Positions 9,588 to 60,394 of a stretch of 64,000 nucleotides of DNA are shown here, piece by piece. Origin of the DNA: Streptomyces tardus (lineage in GTDB: Bacteria; Actinomycetota; Actinomycetes; Streptomycetales; Streptomycetaceae); NCBI RefSeq assembly GCF_018101125.2, contig NZ_JAELVF020000001.1, positions 186,001 through 250,000 of the forward strand. Reading direction: 5' to 3'. A program made the translations under genes and the position numbers. The notes beneath the pieces were generated by a model. That model had not been told where the DNA came from. It did no database searches and saw nothing but the letters and a program-made list of their open reading frames with translations. Each line of letters begins with the position of its first letter. Positions within the stretch are counted from its first letter, which is position 1.

Positions 9588-12500
9588 GGCGGTGCGCCAT
9601 CGCGGCTGCCTCTCCCCTGCCGGTCACCGAGAGCTTCGACAGAATGTTGGAGACGTGCACGCTCGCTGTCTTGGGTGAGATGAAGAGCTCCTGGGCGATC
9701 TGGCGGTTGGTGCGCCCGACGGCCACCAGCGCGAGCACCGCCCGCTCCCGGCGGGTGAGGCCGAACGCCTCCAGCTCCTTCTCCCGCTCCTCGACGGCGT
9801 CCTCCTCCTGCTCGCAGGCGCTCTCGGTGACCTGCTCGGCGGCGCCGTGCTCCGGCTCCGCCAGCGAGATACGGGCCCGCAGTGCGAGCTGCTCGATCCG
9901 CTCGCTCAGTGGACGGGCGTCCAGCCGGGACGAGACGCGGTAGGCGTCGACCAGCACCCGCGCCGCCTTCCCGCGCCACTCCGGCCCTTCCTTCTCCCCG
10001 AGAAGCGCCTCGGCCAGGCGGTACCGGGCCTGGGCCAGCGGGAACGGACAGGGCATCGCCTCCAACGCCACCACCGCCTCCGCCCAGCGGTCCGAACGGG
10101 ACTTCCCGGCCGCCCGCAGCAACTCCGCGTCGGTCAGCAGTCCGTAGGCGGCGGAGAGCGGGACCAGCCGGGGCAGCCGCCGGGCCGCCTCTTCGATCAG
10201 CTCGAGCACTTCCGCCCGCGCCGGCTCAGCGGACGGCAGGCCCCGCAGGTCGGATTCGGCGGACGCGGCGGCGAAGAGCAACGGCCAGCCGTACCCCTCC
10301 ATGCCCATGGGGAAGCCGTTCTCCACGGCCTGCCTGAGGATGGCCCGGGTCTCCTCGACCCTCCCCCTGGCCGCCTCGATCTCCAACTCCAGCCGAGCCA
10401 GCGGGATGACGTACTGCGGCTGCGGATCGTGCGGGCCGTACCATTTGCGCGCCTCGGCGAGCTCCTGTGAGGCGAGGCCGGTGTCTCCCCGGTAGACGGC
10501 GAGCTGGCCGGCACGCAGCGCCGCGAAGGCGCGGGGCTTGACCCCCTGGGCAAGCCGACGGATCTGCTCGATCGCCTCGGTCACCTCGTCCCACCGACCG
10601 AGCATGCACAGCGTCGCGGCGCGGTTGCCGTGCAGCCATGCCTTGGTGTCCTGGAGGCCGTACTCGTGGGCGCGCGCGATGCCGTCCTCCAGGACCTCCA
10701 GCGCCTGCTCGTAGCGGCCGACGTGGTCCAGGGTGCCCGCGTAGTTGATGTGGGCACGGCCCAGGATCGCCACATAGCCGCGCTCGCAGACCCGCTTGAC
10801 CGCCTCCGCCATCACCTCCAGGCCCTCGGTGATGTCCCCGGAATCGACCATCCGCCCGCCGAGGGTCAGCCTGGCGTGCAGCTCGACGCTCTCGGCCCCG
10901 ACGACGGAGGCGAGCTCGACCGCGCGCTGCGCGGTGGCCAGATTGTCGGCGCGGGGGTTGTGATTGGCCTCCCAGGCCGCCGTATGGGCCAGCACCTCGG
11001 CGTGCACCGGGGACGGGTCCAGCCCGTGCACCAGATCCTGCGCCTGGCTCAACTCCGGCCAGCCGTCACCCTTTCCGGTGCCCTCCATCAACTTCGAGCG
11101 CTGAATCCAGAACCACGCCTTGCGCAGCGGATCGTCGTGCTTGTCCAGCAGCCGCTGGGCCTGCTTGATCACAGCGAGCGCACGCTTGCGCTCTCCGGCC
11201 ATCAGCGCCGCATGCGCGGCCTCCGCGAGAAGATCCAGATAGCGAACCGACTCGTCCGTCGCGCCGCAGACCGGGTAAGCGCCGACCTGGTCCGGCGGAC
11301 GCACATCCAGACGTGTCTCCCAGTCCGCGTCCTCCCACTGCTCCAGCGCCCTGTCCAGCAGGCGCAGCTGCTCGGCGAAGGCATAGCGGCGCCTCGCCTG
11401 CACTGCGGCCTCCAGCACCGCAGGCAGCGCCTTGGCGACGTCGTGCGCGTAGTACCAGTAGCTGGCGAGACGAGCGGCGCGCTGATCGGTCCTGACCAGC
11501 TCGGGAGTTGAGGCGAGAGCCTCGGCGTATCTGCGGTTGAGCGCGCTGCGCTCGCCCGGCAGCAGATCGTCGCAGACCGCTTCACGGACCAAGGCGTGGC
11601 GGAAGCGATAGCCTTCGCCGTCCTCCGTGGGTGCCAGCACCTTTGCCTCGACGGCTGCGCGCAGGGCGCCTATCAACTCGCTCTGCGTCTCCTCGGCCAC
11701 CTCGGCGAGCAGCTGGTACTCCACAGTGGACCCGCCTTCGGCCACCAGCCGGACCACCTGCTGGGCGATCTCGGGCAGCGCCTCCACCCGGACCAGCAGC
11801 AGATCGCGCAGCGAATCGCTGATGTCGGAGTCGCCACGGCTGGTGGCCAACTCCTCGACGAAGAACGGGTTTCCCTCGGACCGCTCGAATATCTGCTCCA
11901 CCAGCTCGGGCTCGGGCTCGCGCACCCCCTGGATACCGGCGATCTGAGCACGCACCTCGTCCTGGCTGAGCCGGGGCAGCTCGATCCGCTGCACGGAACG
12001 CAGTCGGTCGAGCTCGGCGAGGAAGGGCCTCAGCGGGTGCCGTCGGTGGATGTCGTCGGAACGGTAGGTGGCGACGAGCACCAGCCGCGAACGGTGCAGC
12101 GATCGGAGGAGGTAGGCGAGCATCTCGCGGGTGGAGCGGTCCGCCCAGTGCAGGTCCTCGATCACGAGAACCAGGGTTCGATCCTGCGCAAGGGCTTCCA
12201 GCAGCCGACCGCTCAACTCGAAGAGTCGCGCACGACCGTCCTCCTCGCGGAACTCCCGGGCGGCGTCGCCCAACTCGGGCAACAGCCGCGCGAGCTCGCC
12301 CTCCTGTCCGGCGGCGGCGTCGGTGAGCTCTTCACCCAGCTCTCGGTGCAGTGAACGCAGCACGGTCGACACCGGCGCGAACGGCAGCCCTTCGGCTCCG
12401 ATCTCGATGCAGCCGCCCACAGCGGCGACCGCACCGGACTCCCGCACGACATCGAGGAACTCCTCGATGAGCCGGCTCTTGCCCACTCCAGCCTCGCCAC

Positions 12501-12645
12501 CGACGACCAGGAGCTGTGGCTCACCGGTGCCGGCACGGGAGAGGGCTCGTTCGAGGGTGGACAACTCGGCCTGGCGGCCGACGAATACGGGGCTGATGCT
12601 CGATGCCTGCACAGGTCCGAGCATCGCATGGGGCACAGGAAACAC
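9475..12645 (-). CDS. Large LAL/LuxR-family transcriptional regulator with AAA ATPase
   Basis: A 1056-residue STAND-type activator. An N-terminal AAA module has Walker A GGEAGVGKS at 49-57 and a Walker B-like segment VLVIEDLHWADRS. A long helical tetratricopeptide-like middle follows. The C-terminal LuxR helix-turn-helix (about 960-1022) contains LTRRERAVLALVAVGRTN, QIAQELFISPKTASVHV and NILSKLSV. Such proteins bind an inducer and ATP and activate nearby genes. The final ~30 residues are Ala/Gly/Ser/Pro-rich and lie in the overlap with the DUF6191-like gene. The start is uncertain: ATG 12645 and ATG 12624 are both possible and neither has a clear ribosome site. Confidence 0.93.
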   Translation of the reverse strand: MFPVPHAMLGPVQASSISPVFVGRQAELSTLERALSRAGTGEPQLLVVGGEAGVGKSRLIEEFLDVVRESGAVAAVGGCIEIGAEGLPFAPVSTVLRSLHRELGEELTDAAAGQEGELARLLPELGDAAREFREEDGRARLFELSGRLLEALAQDRTLVLVIEDLHWADRSTREMLAYLLRSLHRSRLVLVATYRSDDIHRRHPLRPFLAELDRLRSVQRIELPRLSQDEVRAQIAGIQGVREPEPELVEQIFERSEGNPFFVEELATSRGDSDISDSLRDLLLVRVEALPEIAQQVVRLVAEGGSTVEYQLLAEVAEETQSELIGALRAAVEAKVLAPTEDGEGYRFRHALVREAVCDDLLPGERSALNRRYAEALASTPELVRTDQRAARLASYWYYAHDVAKALPAVLEAAVQARRRYAFAEQLRLLDRALEQWEDADWETRLDVRPPDQVGAYPVCGATDESVRYLDLLAEAAHAALMAGERKRALAVIKQAQRLLDKHDDPLRKAWFWIQRSKLMEGTGKGDGWPELSQAQDLVHGLDPSPVHAEVLAHTAAWEANHNPRADNLATAQRAVELASVVGAESVELHARLTLGGRMVDSGDITEGLEVMAEAVKRVCERGYVAILGRAHINYAGTLDHVGRYEQALEVLEDGIARAHEYGLQDTKAWLHGNRAATLCMLGRWDEVTEAIEQIRRLAQGVKPRAFAALRAGQLAVYRGDTGLASQELAEARKWYGPHDPQPQYVIPLARLELEIEAARGRVEETRAILRQAVENGFPMGMEGYGWPLLFAAASAESDLRGLPSAEPARAEVLELIEEAARRLPRLVPLSAAYGLLTDAELLRAAGKSRSDRWAEAVVALEAMPCPFPLAQARYRLAEALLGEKEGPEWRGKAARVLVDAYRVSSRLDARPLSERIEQLALRARISLAEPEHGAAEQVTESACEQEEDAVEEREKELEAFGLTRRERAVLALVAVGRTNRQIAQELFISPKTASVHVSNILSKLSVTGRGEAAAMAHRLRLLPGPAAEAPARSRSAGSPSGGASAAAPPAARAEK

Positions 12646-12682
12646 GGCAGGGCCTGTCGCGGGTGAGCTGCCGGACCGCCGG

Positions 12683-51785: not shown

Positions 51786-53609
51786 TTGCGTACCCACCAG
51801 GTTCCGCCACAGCCGCAGGCCCCCTCACCGGCGGGCACCCCCGCAGAGGCCGAGGCTGCACGGAGAAGCGAAGCAAGCAGGCTGCTGTGCGCGGGAACGT
51901 ATCTGGATCACCGGTACCGCGACCGGGTGATCGACACGTTGTACCGCAACGACCACCGAGTCGTGGCGCCCTCCTTCGGTTTCGACGCCTCCCGCGTCCT
52001 GACCCACGCACTCAAGGCGCGGCGGGTGGCAACGGCCTGGGCCCTGGCGGTGACCGCCCTCATGGCCATCGGAGTGGCCGCCACCGGCACCTGGATGCTG
52101 ATCCTGATCCTTCCCGGACTGCTGCTGACACTGAGCGCCCATGCCGATCGGCTCGCCCTCAGCTCGCCGGGCCGTCGCCGCCGCCTGTCGTCCTTCGCTC
52201 TGCGCTGGTTCAGCCGGCTGCTCCTCACCTGGCTGGTACTCGTCACGGTGTGGCAGGCACTGGGCGTGTCAACGGATGATGACGTGAAGGACTCCGAGGG
52301 GAAGAGCGCGGACGCGGAGCAGACCAAAACGAGTGATATCGACGCGAACAATGCCGGTGCGGACGGTACGGGCACTCTGCAGAACGACGAACAGGAAACG
52401 GGCTTCGAGTTTGGGGATCTGTTCCCCGAAGCGCTCCTACCTCCCGACCAGTTGGAAGCGTGGCTCGGGTTGCTGGTGCTGCTGGCGCTGGGGGCGTGTG
52501 TCGCCGGCCGGCAGCTGCAGTTCGTCCAGCTGCTCCGCAGCGACCTCTCCGCGCGGGTGTTCTCCGACGTCTCCGCAGATCCCGCGGAGCGGGCCCGGAA
52601 ACCCCGTTTGTCCTGGGTTCTGCGCCGCATCCGGAGCGAGCAGCACTCGCCGCTGGTCATGTACCACGAGGCGCGCCCCTTCTGCGGCGCCGGCGTCGCC
52701 CGTGACCCCTGGTCCCTGGCGGTCGAACTGCGGCAGGAGCGCCCGGGCGCGGGCCGACCGATCGGGAACGCCGCCGTCCTCGCGGCGGTGCGGCCGTACA
52801 TCGAGCAGCTGCGCGAGGTGGCCGGCTCCTCGCAGAGGGACGGCCATCCCGTCCGGGACCGCCTGCGTCAGCTGGAGATCGACGAGTGCGTCTTCCTCCC
52901 GATGGAGGGGCTGCGCCGCCGTGAGGAGGCGCCGTACGACCGTGCCTCGTTCGAGGAGCACCGGGCACGCGCGACCGAGGAGGGCGGCGAGATGCGCCGT
53001 CACTTTCTGCGGATCAGAGTCAGCGGGTGGGAACAGGGCCTGGTCGTCACCGTGTTCGTACGGGTCCACACACAGGGCAGGATGCTGATGCTCGAGGTCG
53101 CGCCGCACACGCTTCTGCCGGTGCGGGCCGATTTCAAGGACGCCGACCATCTGCTCTACCGGTTCGCCGACGTGAACAGGTTCGGCAAAGCGGTCCACAT
53201 CTTCACCATGGTGGCCGGCGCGCCGGGAAGTGCCCTGATGACGTTGGGCCATCAAGGTCTCAGCGCCTGGCGTCGAATGACCGGTGAGGACGACCGGTCG
53301 CAGACGGACGGGCCTGCCCTCTCGGTGCGCGAACTCGCCTCGGAGCCGAAGGGTTCGCTGTTCCAGACCATGGACGTCGATCGGTATCTGAAAAGCATTC
53401 AGGACCGCATCGCTTACGGAGTGAAGACCGCACTCGCAGAAGCCGGTTACGAGACGGACGAGTTCACGCAGAAGGTGATCCACGTCAGCAACGGCGGCGT
53501 CAACATCGACTCCGTCGTGGACAGCACTTTCGCCGTCGGCACGCACGCGCACGCCACCACCGACGGCGCGCAGTCGCCGTCCCCGAGGGGAGCCAGCAGT
53601 GGCCAGTGA
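51786..53609 (+). CDS. Unknown 607-residue membrane protein, first gene of a three-gene operon
   Basis: I do not recognise a family. Residues 1-75 are cytoplasmic-looking, with two helices at about 81-98 and 101-118 and a third at 137-160. A strongly acidic, Asn/Glu-rich loop spans 162-218, and a fourth helix is at 222-242. A large soluble domain (250-560) contains FVRVHTQGRMLMLEVAPHT and ADHLLYRFADVNRFGKA. The C-terminus has VNIDSVVDSTFAVGTHAHA (572-590), also found at the start of the next protein. The apparent start is TTG 51786, with AGGGAG four bases upstream; no ATG or GTG fits. The next gene overlaps its end by 11 bases. Confidence 0.8.
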   Translation: MRTHQVPPQPQAPSPAGTPAEAEAARRSEASRLLCAGTYLDHRYRDRVIDTLYRNDHRVVAPSFGFDASRVLTHALKARRVATAWALAVTALMAIGVAATGTWMLILILPGLLLTLSAHADRLALSSPGRRRRLSSFALRWFSRLLLTWLVLVTVWQALGVSTDDDVKDSEGKSADAEQTKTSDIDANNAGADGTGTLQNDEQETGFEFGDLFPEALLPPDQLEAWLGLLVLLALGACVAGRQLQFVQLLRSDLSARVFSDVSADPAERARKPRLSWVLRRIRSEQHSPLVMYHEARPFCGAGVARDPWSLAVELRQERPGAGRPIGNAAVLAAVRPYIEQLREVAGSSQRDGHPVRDRLRQLEIDECVFLPMEGLRRREEAPYDRASFEEHRARATEEGGEMRRHFLRIRVSGWEQGLVVTVFVRVHTQGRMLMLEVAPHTLLPVRADFKDADHLLYRFADVNRFGKAVHIFTMVAGAPGSALMTLGHQGLSAWRRMTGEDDRSQTDGPALSVRELASEPKGSLFQTMDVDRYLKSIQDRIAYGVKTALAEAGYETDEFTQKVIHVSNGGVNIDSVVDSTFAVGTHAHATTDGAQSPSPRGASSGQ

Positions 53610-53955
53610 CCACACCCAGCCGCACGTCAACATCGGCGACGTCTCCGGCAGTACGTTCGCCATCGGCAGTCACGCACGGGCCGAGACCAATCACGGCGCC
53701 GGAACACGCGACGAGAGCAGCGAGGAGCTCCTCGTTGCGGTCCGGGAGTTGAGGGCGGACCTGACCCGTGTTCGGGCGAGTCCGCAGACCGCCGACCTGG
53801 ACGCGACCCTGGCCGACACGGAGGAGGAGATCGCCCGCACCGGGAGCGCGGGCGAGGGTCGTCTGGCGCGGTTGCGGGAGCTGCTGAGCTCCGAAGCCTC
53901 CCTGGCCACCGTGCTGGCGTCGGCGGGGGCCGTCGCAGGTCTGCTGGGTCTGTGA
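53599..53955 (+). CDS. Small DUF5955-like coiled-coil protein, second gene of operon
   Basis: A 118-residue protein. The N-terminal motif VNIGDVSGSTFAIGSHARA (10-28) matches 12 of 19 residues of the C-terminal motif of the upstream protein. A charged helical segment follows (about 40-85: SSEELLVAVRELRADLTRVR and on), then an Ala/Leu-rich hydrophobic end (LATVLASAGAVAGLLGL) that could insert in or lie on a membrane. It resembles DUF5955 proteins of streptomycetes, as I recall; no function is known. The GTG start overlaps the preceding stop codon, with AGGGGAG upstream. Confidence 0.78.
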   Translation: MASDHTQPHVNIGDVSGSTFAIGSHARAETNHGAGTRDESSEELLVAVRELRADLTRVRASPQTADLDATLADTEEEIARTGSAGEGRLARLRELLSSEASLATVLASAGAVAGLLGL

Positions 53956-53964
53956 GCCGGCGGG

Positions 53965-54828
53965 ATGAGTGAGTCGGAGCGCTACTGGAACGAGGACGCG
54001 CAGCAGTGGGAGGAGCGCGGCGGTCGCGGCACGCCCGTCGTCACGGACGCGTCCCGCACAACGGCTTCGAAGGGGCGGCTCGGCGCTTCCCGTTCGGTTG
54101 ACCTCCGAGCGTTGGTGGCTGCGGTCGTGGCCATCGGTGTCGTCGTGGTGGTGGTCGTCGCGCTGGCCACAAAGGGCCCGTCGGGCGAGGAGTCGAAGAA
54201 GCCCGCCTCCTCCGATTCTCCTTCCCCCTCCGACTCTCCGCTCCCGACCGACTCCGGCTCGCCGTCCCCCTCGGCCACCGGGCCGCCTCCCGGCGGCGAT
54301 CCGTCCTCCCTGCCCTCCACACCTCCCGCTCCCGGTGTTCCCGACGGATACGAAGCGGTCGCGGACCCGACAGAGGGGTTCAGCACTGTGATTCCCCAGG
54401 GCTGGAGACGGGTCGAGCATTACGTGCCCGGAAGCGATCTCTTCACTGTCACGTACAAGGACCGCGCTGTCAGCAAACTTGTCGAGGCGAATCAGGTGCT
54501 CCGAGTCCTCCGTCTGAGCGAGCCCACCGTCGATGAATCCGTCAAGGACCTGACCGAGTTCGCCGGGAATTTCAGTTCACCTCCCGATCCGAAGCCGTTC
54601 CACTCCGGCGCCCTCCACGGCAAACGGATGGAGTACGTGCTCACCGAGCCGAGCGGCCCGAGACCCCACCGCGTCGACATCCACTTCAAGGCGGACGACG
54701 GGAACCTCTACCGGGTGCTCGTGGAACACGACGGTGGAGACGCGCAACGGGCGAGGTGGAGGGCAACCTCAGCCGCAGAGCACTTCTGCTCCCCCAACGC
54801 GTCCTGCGGCAGGCTGGGAAGCCCCTGA
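53965..54828 (+). CDS. Unknown single-pass membrane protein with extracellular domain, third gene of operon
   Basis: A 287-residue type II-like protein. A short cytoplasmic N-terminus (MSESERYWNEDAQQWEER) is followed by one membrane helix (about 48-68, Val/Ala-rich) and a Ser/Pro/Asp-rich linker to about 125. An outer domain (130-280) with GFSTVIPQGWRRVEHYVPGS follows, and two Cys near the end (HFCSPNASC) could form a disulfide. Similar outer domains occur on streptomycete Ser/Thr kinase and sensor proteins, but no kinase is here. It starts nine bases after the previous gene, so the three are one operon. Confidence 0.78.
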   Translation: MSESERYWNEDAQQWEERGGRGTPVVTDASRTTASKGRLGASRSVDLRALVAAVVAIGVVVVVVVALATKGPSGEESKKPASSDSPSPSDSPLPTDSGSPSPSATGPPPGGDPSSLPSTPPAPGVPDGYEAVADPTEGFSTVIPQGWRRVEHYVPGSDLFTVTYKDRAVSKLVEANQVLRVLRLSEPTVDESVKDLTEFAGNFSSPPDPKPFHSGALHGKRMEYVLTEPSGPRPHRVDIHFKADDGNLYRVLVEHDGGDAQRARWRATSAAEHFCSPNASCGRLGSP

Positions 54829-57611: not shown

Positions 57612-58445
57612 TCAGTCTGCGGGGGCGGTGGAGCCGAGGAGTTCGCGGACGCGGCTGGTGATGCGTTGGAACTCCGCGTTCTTCAGGGTGCGTTCGTAGT
57701 CGCGGTGGCCGGGCAGCTCGACCGGGAACTCCTCGATCACACGGCCGGGGCGGGGCCCCATGACGACGGTGCGGGAGGCGAGATAGACGGCCTCGGCGAC
57801 CGAGTGGGTCACCAGGACGACGGTCATGCCGGTCCGTTCCCAGATGCGGCGCAGCTCGATGTTCATGTTCTCCCGGGTGAGCGCGTCCAGGGCGCCGAAG
57901 GGTTCGTCCATGAGGAGCACATCGGGTTCGTGGAGCAGGGCCCGGCAGAGCGAGACGCGCTGCTGCATCCCGCCGGAGAGTTCGAAGGGCATGGCCTTCT
58001 CGAAACCGGTGAGGCCGGTCAGCTCCATGAGTTCGTCGGCGCGTTTGCGGGCCCAGGCCTTCGGCAGTCCGCGCATCTCGGCCTGGAAGAGGATGTTGCC
58101 CCGGGCGGTGCGCCAGTCCAGCAGCGCGGCACGCTGGAAGACGAAGCCGACATCGCGGCGGGGCCCGAGCACCGGGCTGCCGCGCAGCGCCACCTCGCCG
58201 GCGGTCGGCGAGGTGAGCCCGGCGACGACCCGCAGCAGCGTCGACTTCCCGCAGCCCGAGGGCCCGGCGATGCTGAGGAACTCGCCGCGCTCCACGGTCA
58301 GTTCGATGCTGCTGAGCGCCTGCACCGTACGGTCCCCGGTGCGGAAGGCGACGTCCACGCCGCGGATCTCGACCATCGGGCCGCCGGGGCGGTGGGCTGC
58401 GGGTTCGGCGCCGCTTCCGGCGCCCTCCCCGGTCTTGGCGAACAT
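57612..58445 (-). CDS. ABC transporter ATP-binding protein (NMT1/SsuB/TauB type)
   Basis: A 277-residue ATPase. Walker A is IAGPSGCGKSTLLR, the signature is FELSGGMQQRVSLCRAL and Walker B is PDVLLMDEPFGALD. It matches the nitrate/sulfonate/taurine/thiamine-precursor subfamily. ATG 58445 starts two bases after the binding-protein stop. Last gene of a permease, binding-protein, ATPase operon. The frame stays open leftward-upstream through the other two genes, but only as an out-of-frame shadow. Confidence 0.94.
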   Translation of the reverse strand: MFAKTGEGAGSGAEPAAHRPGGPMVEIRGVDVAFRTGDRTVQALSSIELTVERGEFLSIAGPSGCGKSTLLRVVAGLTSPTAGEVALRGSPVLGPRRDVGFVFQRAALLDWRTARGNILFQAEMRGLPKAWARKRADELMELTGLTGFEKAMPFELSGGMQQRVSLCRALLHEPDVLLMDEPFGALDALTRENMNIELRRIWERTGMTVVLVTHSVAEAVYLASRTVVMGPRPGRVIEEFPVELPGHRDYERTLKNAEFQRITSRVRELLGSTAPAD

Positions 58446-58447
58446 GC

Positions 58448-59500
58448 TCACTTCCCCTCGGTGGTGAAGCCGGCGTCGTAGTAGGTGTCGGTCTCCCTGG
58501 CCTGTTTGATCAGTCCGGCCTCGGCGAGCACCTCGACGGTCTCCCGCCAGTCCTTCTCGGCCGCGTTGCCCGGTGCGCTGCCCTTGGTGTTCTCGGTGGT
58601 GAGCAGTGGGATCGTCTCCTGCCACTGCTGGAGGAGCACCTTGGTGCCGGGCATCTGCGGATCGTCGCCCGCCATGGACTCGACGGCGTCCTCGGGCGAC
58701 TTCTGTGCGGCGGCGAAGGACTCGGAGGTGGCGGCGACCATGCGCTTCACCAGGTCGGGGTCCTTGGCGATGGTGGAGGTGTGGGCGAGCAGACCGTTGC
58801 TGAAGAAGTTCAACCCGGCGTCGCTGTACCGCAGATAGGTGACCTTCTTGCCGCTCTCGTCGGAGATCTTCGGGCCCTGGTCGTGGGCGAATCCGATGAG
58901 CCCGTCCACCCGGCCGTGCATCATCGCGGCGTTCTTGCCGGCGGAGTCCAGGTTCTGCTGGGTGACGTCGCTCTTGGCCAGGCCGACCGCGTCGAGGTAC
59001 ATGGGGAAGGTGAGGGTGACCGCGTCCCCCGCGGAGGTGGCGATCTTCTTGCCCTTGAGGTCCTTGGGCGACTTGATGCCCGTGTCGCTGAAGACCTGGA
59101 CGGCCGAGGGGGTGGACTGGAGGAAGACGCCGACGGACTTGACCTTCACGCCCTGGTCGACGTTGGCGAGCAGAGCCGGGGTGTCCGCCCAGCCGAAGTC
59201 GAAGTCCCGCTGGCCGACGGACTGCACGGTCCTGGCGGAGCCCTGTCCGGCCTCGACCTTGAGGGCGATGCCGTGCTTCTCGAATATCCCCTCGTCGACC
59301 CCGTAGTAGAACGGCGCGTGCTCGCCGTAGGGGTACCAGTTGAGCTGGAGGCTGACCTGGTCGAGATCGGGGTTCTGGGCCGCGTCGCCACCGCCTCCGC
59401 AGGCGGTCAGCGTCCAGGTGCAGGCGCCGGCGAGGAGAACGGCCGTGGTGCGGCGGGCGGTTCGGGAGGAGCGTGCGGTGCGGGGGGCGCGTGTGGCCAT
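58448..59500 (-). CDS. NMT1/THI5-like substrate-binding lipoprotein
   Basis: A 350-residue binding protein. An Arg-rich signal start (MATRAPRTARSSRTARRTTA) leads to lipobox LTACGG with Cys near 34. The mature domain has LQLNWYPYGEHAPFYYGVDE, GIFEKHGIALKVEAGQGS, DFDFGWADTPALL and LKGKKIATSAGDAVTLTFP. Relatives bind thiamine pyrimidine precursors, riboflavin or pyrimidines (ThiY/RibY-like). The exact ligand here is not readable. Confidence 0.92.
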   Translation of the reverse strand: MATRAPRTARSSRTARRTTAVLLAGACTWTLTACGGGGDAAQNPDLDQVSLQLNWYPYGEHAPFYYGVDEGIFEKHGIALKVEAGQGSARTVQSVGQRDFDFGWADTPALLANVDQGVKVKSVGVFLQSTPSAVQVFSDTGIKSPKDLKGKKIATSAGDAVTLTFPMYLDAVGLAKSDVTQQNLDSAGKNAAMMHGRVDGLIGFAHDQGPKISDESGKKVTYLRYSDAGLNFFSNGLLAHTSTIAKDPDLVKRMVAATSESFAAAQKSPEDAVESMAGDDPQMPGTKVLLQQWQETIPLLTTENTKGSAPGNAAEKDWRETVEVLAEAGLIKQARETDTYYDAGFTTEGK

Positions 59501-59533
59501 GACGGATACCTTCCGTTGGCTCGGTCGGTGGGT

Positions 59534-60394
59534 TCAGACCCGGTTGCGGCGCGAGGCGTGCCACGGGATGAGGAGCATCTCGGCGAGCTGGATCAGCGCG
59601 AAGAGCAGGACGCCGAGCGCGGACATGATGATGAGCGCGGCGAAGAGCATCGGGGTGTCGATGTTGCCGTTGGCCTGGAGGATCACGTAGCCCAGACCGG
59701 AGTTGGCGCCGACGAACTCGCCGACGACCGCGCCGGTGACCGCCAGGGTCGCGGCGACCTTGAGGCCGGAGAGCAGTTCGGGCAGCGCGGCGGGAAAGCG
59801 GACCTTCCAGAACGTCTTCAGCCGGGACGCGCCCATGGTGGAGGTGAGTTCGAGGAGTTCGGGGTCGACCGAGCGCAGTCCGCTGATCCCGGAGATCACC
59901 ACCGGGAAGAACGCCATCAGCACGGCGACGAGGATCTTCGGGCTGGTGCCGAAGCCGAGCCATACGACGAACAGCGGGGCGATCGCGATCTTCGGCACGA
60001 CCTGGGCGAAGAGGATGAGCGGGTAGAACGTCTTCTCCAGCGCCGGTGAGTAGACCATCAGCACGGCGACCAGGATGCCGACCACGGCGGCGATCACGAA
60101 GCCGGCGACGGTCTCCCCCGTCGTCACGAGCGTGTGCTCCCACAGGTAGGCCCCGTGGTCGGTGAAGGTGCTCCAGGTGTCTCCCGGCGACGGGATGATG
60201 TACGGCTGCACCAGCTCGGTGGCGGTCACCACGAACCACGCGACCGTCAGCAGCGCGAGGAAGGTGACCGGGTAGACCGCGCCGGTGACCGCACTCGGCG
60301 GACGGCGACGGCGTACGGGCTTGGTGGCGGTCCGGTCGTCGTCGGCGACGGCTGCGGACGGAGGATCGGATACGTGCTGTGCCTGTGGAGCCAT
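59534..60394 (-). CDS. ABC transporter permease (NMT1/SsuC type)
   Basis: A 286-residue permease with about six helices after a charged ~35-residue N-terminus. The transport-domain loop reads ELTSTMGASRLKTFWKVRFP followed by AALPELLSGLKVAA. IIPSPGDTWSTF is typical of the subfamily. First gene of the ABC operon. Its start lies 137 bases from the divergent LacI gene, across two operator-like palindromes. Confidence 0.94.
   Translation of the reverse strand: MAPQAQHVSDPPSAAVADDDRTATKPVRRRRPPSAVTGAVYPVTFLALLTVAWFVVTATELVQPYIIPSPGDTWSTFTDHGAYLWEHTLVTTGETVAGFVIAAVVGILVAVLMVYSPALEKTFYPLILFAQVVPKIAIAPLFVVWLGFGTSPKILVAVLMAFFPVVISGISGLRSVDPELLELTSTMGASRLKTFWKVRFPAALPELLSGLKVAATLAVTGAVVGEFVGANSGLGYVILQANGNIDTPMLFAALIIMSALGVLLFALIQLAEMLLIPWHASRRNRV

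Follow-up and report, generated by a model that had tools for sequence, protein, structure and literature searches.

A conserved actinobacterial gene pair with co-varying terminal motifs: a candidate non-NLR relative of bacterial amyloid-signalling pairs

Known motif-coupled pairs and the Streptomyces tardus locus

In the bacterial amyloid-signalling families BASS1-10, a NOD-like receptor (NLR) is paired with a Bell protein (Dyrka et al. 2020, as outlined in PMC7889193 and PMC8086366), and the motifs are given in these two papers as 20-40 residues long. Amyloid signalling motifs are reported to lie, as short and sometimes repeated stretches, in the facing termini of adjacent-gene products (PMC8086366, PMC7889193, PMC9815663). 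Fungal PNP_UDP proteins are paired with NLRs through an amyloid motif, and for these PUASM pairs amyloid and prion behaviour has been demonstrated (PMC9815663). The adaptor and effector/signalling domains described for conflict systems in multicellular bacteria include EAD1 and those of the PNPase superfamily, and one EAD/EACC1 system is a membrane-associated two-gene system (PMC7159879). Whether signalling amyloids also exist in bacteria beyond the NLR pathways is a question raised in a 2021 review (PMC7889193). Here the analysis concerns a gene pair, A-B, in a 64,000-nucleotide stretch of Streptomyces tardus (contig NZ_JAELVF020000001.1, positions 186,001 to 250,000; hereafter the window, from whose first letter the coordinates of the locus are counted), in which the C-terminal tail of the membrane protein A and the N-terminus of its neighbour B carry a similar motif of ~20 residues. 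The two motifs co-vary within pairs across the family, and the best reading of the sequences is that, by mechanism, A-B would be a non-NLR relative of the bacterial amyloid-signalling pairs.

The A-B pair resembles the BASS pairs, as these are presented in the two papers cited, in the similar short motif at facing ends of adjacent-gene products, the actinobacterial setting, the single or repeated motif copies and the helical partner with a hydrophobic segment. It differs in that the receptor-like protein A is a membrane protein with four transmembrane (TM) helices and no Walker A motif, not an NLR, and in that the motif order is reversed relative to the NLR/Bell pairs as there presented, being C-terminal on the receptor-like and N-terminal on the effector-like protein; a Bell-like C-terminal effector motif was thus not found, the motif of B being N-terminal. 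Walker A was absent from all 109 Streptomycetaceae and all 45 distant A proteins, and no NTPase (NACHT or NB-ARC) Pfam match was obtained in 27 A homologs or in three distant ones, which argues that, where scanned, A-B is not an NLR system. The family is judged to work like amyloid signalling pairs but to lie outside the NLR/Bell class as defined. No description of it was found in the literature searched, although some pairs may be included in the primary BASS survey or in subscription literature. With ~160 loci examined, many motif types that are each specific to their pair, and partners of several kinds, it is a concrete candidate for NLR-free signalling amyloids; if true, its orthogonal peptide pairs would form a natural library in which to study amyloid specificity, and a transmembrane receptor would stand at the head of an amyloid-type pathway.

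The features of the locus are as follows:
51786 to 53609, plus strand: gene A, 607-amino-acid membrane protein (TTG start, stop codon counted)
51987 to 52259, plus strand: A TM helices 1-3 (residues 68-100, 102-126 and 130-158), predicted from hydropathy and the AlphaFold2 model (predicted local distance difference test, pLDDT, of the block mostly >90)
52449 to 52544, plus strand: A TM helix 4 (residues 222-253), predicted from hydropathy and the AlphaFold2 model, following an acidic low-complexity loop
52545 to 53480, plus strand: A alpha/beta domain (residues ~254-565), highly conserved and presumably cytosolic, from the alignment and the AlphaFold2 model
53499 to 53555, plus strand: A-side motif VNIDSVVDSTFAVGTHAHA (A residues 572-590) in the disordered C-terminal tail, from the alignment and the model
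53599 to 53609, plus strand: overlap of genes A and B, 11 bases, from the coordinates of the open reading frames
53599 to 53955, plus strand: gene B, 118-amino-acid partner protein (GTG start), from the open reading frame coordinates
53626 to 53682, plus strand: B-side motif VNIGDVSGSTFAIGSHARA (B residues 10-28) in the disordered N-terminus, from the alignment and the model
53713 to 53892, plus strand: helical body of B (helices 39-57, 62-81 and 86-98), from the structure model, with weak DUF5955 similarity among relatives
53890 to 53952, plus strand: C-terminal hydrophobic segment of B (residues ~98-118), from hydropathy, the hydrophobic character being kept in the alignment
53965 to 54828, plus strand: gene C, 287-amino-acid single-TM protein (hydropathy) with the N-terminal signature RYWNEDAQQWEE and a putative extracellular PsbP-like part

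In the AlphaFold2 model of A, the tail from residue 566 has low confidence, is predicted to be disordered and holds the motif. The first ~38 residues of B, with the motif among them, are likewise predicted to be disordered, and short helices are modelled after residue 98. Both motif regions are therefore predicted to be disordered as monomers.

Co-variation of the A and B motifs

In the window, VNIDSVVDSTFAVGTHAHA and VNIGDVSGSTFAIGSHARA are identical at 12 of 19 positions, as the sequence-only reading had reported along with their coordinates and the 11-base gene overlap, all of which were confirmed. When the full-length A and B proteins were aligned locally, the score was 64, against a mean of 35.5 and a maximum of 62 for 1000 shuffles of B (Gumbel P ~4e-4). 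Taken alone, this likeness is suggestive, not conclusive; the family-wide sequence evidence for A/B matching is far stronger than that of the single pair.

The motif was scored on both sides in 114 Streptomycetaceae pairs, with 109 non-redundant pairs entering a permutation test. The mean score was 62.3 for own pairs and 41.1 for swapped ones, the highest of 20,000 permutations being 45.4. To guard against the main confounder, a single change passed down to many loci, the set was thinned on A identity: with 88, 58, 28 and 14 representatives (<90, 80, 70 and 60% A identity, respectively) none of 50,000 permutations reached the observed mean, own and swapped pairs of the last set scoring 55.2 and 28.8, and with thinning to five representatives 838 of 50,000 reached it. 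Matched A/B motifs include SAFSVGGSG/SAFSIGGTG, VGGNVQGNGIAIG/VGGSVTGNGIAVG, SAVNFG/SAVNFG, RADNSSFAFG/RADNSSFAFG and ISGSNNNVAAG/ISGSNNNVAAG. Plain descent from one copy followed by drift would give no excess in own pairs, so the excess observed argues against drift alone. By position, the identity of own minus swapped pairs was +0.2 to +0.4 at positions 1, 4, 5, 6, 8, 10, 11, 12 and 16, 0.08 at position 3 and about zero at positions 2, 13 and 17 (loci with two B copies being entered with the better copy, a small bias), and the co-variation is thus concentrated on the core positions of the motif. Two control junctions of the same operons showed no matching, with scores for own and swapped pairs of 20.5 and 20.5 between the B end and the C start and of 24.1 and 23.8 between the A end and the C start.

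Of 150 genomes sampled in the family of the window, 98 had a match to A (a count that takes in a motif-less paralog), and A was also matched in 80 named loci, almost all of them under Streptomyces titles. The B gene lay directly downstream of A in 116 of 119 loci, or 116 of the 118 evaluable Streptomycetaceae loci. The three A loci without a counted B were one cut by the contig end (L099), one with an eroded motif (L077) and one with an unrelated next gene (L103), despite which A keeps the motif. A C-type third gene with the signature W-[ND]...[QR]xW followed 97 of the 101 pairs having enough flanking sequence, so that the three-gene operon of the sequence-only reading stands for the Streptomycetaceae clade, whereas in the wider family the core is the A-B pair. 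Tandem motif copies were present in 19 B proteins; in the L078-L096 clade, B has two copies with a proline-rich linker between them. A motif-less A paralog in the window's own genome (L265; C2, ~4786116-4786700) has neither motif nor partner, and many Streptomyces genomes gave matches to this motif-free type, at 25-30% identity. About 1.5 kb past the A gene of L103 (Streptomyces griseus NCTC13033), positions 10311-12668 read as an NB-ARC-type NTPase with TPR-like repeats, whose N-terminal ELSGTVHGFVVQTGSVHGGIHVSG resembles by eye a RHIM/BASS3-type motif.

A profile built from 30 motifs and run through 41 Streptomyces genomes gave 36 matches in 21 of them, with exactly two adjacent matches in 15; no genome had more than two, and no third gene with the motif was seen. 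Among the six genomes with a single match, three held A-B pairs with a sub-threshold partner (L192, L198 and L202), one a truncated A beside a retained B (L201), and one, on the minus strand (L203), an A with an intact motif, no B found nearby and an apparent IS605-type transposase fragment just downstream; the match at L200 looked like chance and was set aside. As the matches fall almost only there, the motif belongs to the A-B pair. The proposal that it ties the two operon partners specifically is supported by the co-variation within pairs and by this near-confinement to the gene pair, and the opposite case, a motif residing mostly in single, unpaired genes, was not encountered in the 41 genomes.

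Diverged A relatives, with ~25-30% identity in local matches at the lowest, reach other actinobacterial families. These distant homologs keep the A-B layout with unrelated-looking motifs, each common to its own pair, as in ITGGTFNGPVAAGTGAHATQN/ITGGTFNGPMAAGAGAHAVQN (L261), GGVQSGSIAGGHTVAQTNQT/GGTQHGPIAGGYHVQQTNQT (L270), INGGNYGPINTGSGRQDNRGMTI/ISGGNQGPINTGSGTQDNRNMTI (L324), NSGIVNMGGTNDFTNTAVGDQA/NSGIVNMGGTNSFTNTAVGDQA (L279) and NVTGNVQSGAHARA/SVTGNVQTGSHARA (L275); the motifs of L275 and L276 hold a VQxG/IQxG-like core. With partner starts picked by hand from open reading frame lists, 45 distant pairs scored 72.5 as own and 36.5 as swapped pairs (permutation maximum 46.0 in 100,000), and 32 representatives at <50% identity scored 71.4 and 35.0, respectively (maximum 47.4 in 100,000), the own partner scoring best in 22 of the 32. 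The layout likened earlier to that of amyloid signalling, with a similar short motif at the facing termini of adjacent-gene products, thus recurs across the family.

Partner types and domain searches

In 17 distant loci, the open reading frame layout of the partner is that of the motif followed by a nucleoside-phosphorylase-like protein (276-325 amino acids), and the three examples checked matched PNP_UDP_1 at 68.8, 41.6 and 45.5 bits (cut-off 25.1). Members of this sub-family are L260 (6044-6937), L278 and L303-L316; the next gene of L260 (5345-5998, minus strand) reads as one TM segment plus a phospholipase-D-like part. A single distant locus, L267, has a partner consisting of the motif and EAD1 (52 bits, cut-off 24.2); no EAD domain was detected in window B by Pfam scan. 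Several helical partners resemble DUF5955 (PF19380), with L271 (34.3 bits) and L275 (47.9 bits) exceeding the cut-off of 27.1. The helical body of B resembles DUF5955, but window B gave no match at this cut-off and the strong-scoring DUF5955 proteins examined have no such motif. The domain content of the swapped partners suggests that B is an effector- or adaptor-side protein, and the exchange of B for EAD1 or PNP_UDP partners is in keeping with the connection to actinobacterial conflict systems put forward from the window alone. The description of B as a coiled-coil protein left out the C-terminal hydrophobic segment and the enzyme found in its place in relatives.

As in the fungal PUASM pairs of a PNP_UDP effector and an NLR (PMC9815663), a short matched motif links a PNP_UDP protein to its adjacent-gene partner; here, however, the PNP protein has the motif at its N-terminus and is partnered by a bacterial membrane protein. 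The EAD/EACC1 conflict systems (Kaur et al. 2020, PMC7159879) also have a small coupling module common to adjacent genes, proposed to be homotypic, and the same adaptor/effector domains (EAD1, PNPase superfamily), whereas A-B coupling would be through the ~20-residue motif and not a folded EAD. No match to EACC1, caspase, vWA or MoxR was found in A-B systems; for EACC1 in the 5' gene, the absence of a Pfam match in A holds provided that Pfam covers EACC1.

The A, B and C proteins of the window matched no Pfam or NCBIfam family above cut-off, a Pfam scan of 27 A homologs gave zero matches, and PADLOC on A, B and C returned nothing beyond weak, partial matches within the low-complexity part of C. 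In Foldseek searches, the A model gave insignificant Bet v1/START-like matches in the PDB (E no better than 0.12), with neither a sensor nor an enzyme fold recognised, and the B model gave no significant match; none of these structural matches is taken as evidence. Sequence profile searches of the PDB yielded chance-like matches alone. Hydropathy places one TM segment of C at residues 42-75, and the weak match of C to PsbP is under the Pfam cut-off, the extracellular side of this part being presumed.

Proposed mechanism and alternatives

The conserved pair, the co-variation of the motifs, their confinement to the pair, the partner swaps and the predicted disorder of the motif regions can be read from the sequences themselves, and on this basis we strongly infer a specific physical contact between A and B. 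The co-variation in the sequences compared is most simply explained by specific recognition between the A tail and the B N-terminus. We consider it probable that A, as receptor or scaffold, and B, as effector, make up a cognate module in which motif pairing recruits B, probably by beta stacking. A would be anchored by its four TM helices, with the disordered tail and its short beta-forming motif reaching into the cytosol, and B would bring the matching N-terminal motif followed by the helical domain and the hydrophobic C-terminal segment. Upon a cue received via A's own domains or, in Streptomyces, via C, clustered A tails would recruit B through homotypic motif pairing, probably as in-register beta stacking of the amyloid-signalling type, and the effector B would thereby be concentrated or polymerised at the membrane; in the Streptomyces form, its hydrophobic segments may act on the membrane. 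The C-terminus of A is placed in the cytosol because an even count of TM helices (four) leaves both ends on one side, and we infer both this location of the motifs and the direction from A to B. An amyloid polymer, membrane damage and a role in defence or cell death are speculative. It is accordingly with reserve, and as a possibility falling somewhat short of probable, that we put forward a widespread NLR-free actinobacterial class of amyloid type, in which a membrane receptor would nucleate diverse cytosolic effectors, namely membrane-active helical proteins, nucleoside phosphorylases and EAD1 adaptors, through prion-like motifs that diversify fast and are specific to each pair; such a device may serve abortive infection or cell death.

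Some observations weigh against a cognate module of this type. A few pairs differ in indel register (L120, L174 and L137), and orphan A genes with an intact motif occur at L103, L203 and L321, the last a distant A with no motif partner adjoining. For A, neither a sensor nor an enzyme fold was recognised. Pairing could also stop at a small beta complex of the motif, with no polymer, and common base composition or rare conversion may account for a minor share of the A/B likeness.

The alternative that survives best, though still unlikely, is a non-amyloid homotypic contact, in which the motifs would keep B permanently bound to A, as a scaffold, through a stoichiometric beta-arch or beta-augmentation complex with no templated polymer. 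The co-variation needs specific recognition and nothing more, and B is encoded directly beside A, as such a tether would have it; but the length of the motifs and their richness in Gly, Ser, Asn, Ala and Val match the layout of amyloid signalling motifs (PMC8086366, PMC7889193, PMC9815663), which the facing termini, the predicted disorder and the tandem copies in B proteins also fit, and the partner domains PNP_UDP and EAD1 are conflict-system effector or adaptor domains (PMC7159879). Templated beta stacking is judged likelier than stoichiometric contact because of this motif layout.

It is improbable that each protein uses the motif independently as a tag for localisation or self-association, for instance at hyphal septa, with the match reflecting a common third partner. 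Both motif regions are predicted disordered tails and a common ligand could impose similar sequences on them, but a single third partner would need to change in step in each lineage, and the profile revealed no third motif gene in the 41 genomes. Least probable is that gene conversion or recent duplication keeps the neighbouring sequences alike without protein-level function: the motif starts are just 127 bases apart and codon identity is slightly raised in own pairs (65.8% same codon at identical residues versus 61.6-64.6% between genomes at 50-90% A identity), but the choice of synonymous codon varies almost as often within own pairs as between genomes, where recent conversion would drive codon identity towards 100%, and the matching peaks at core positions, is missing at others and holds up in families whose motif sequences are quite different, so that it appears to be mainly at the protein level and conversion was set aside as largely refuted.

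Elsewhere in the window, positions 57612-60394 on the minus strand read as a NitT/TauT/NMT1-type ATP-binding cassette importer with a permease, a substrate-binding lipoprotein and an ATPase.
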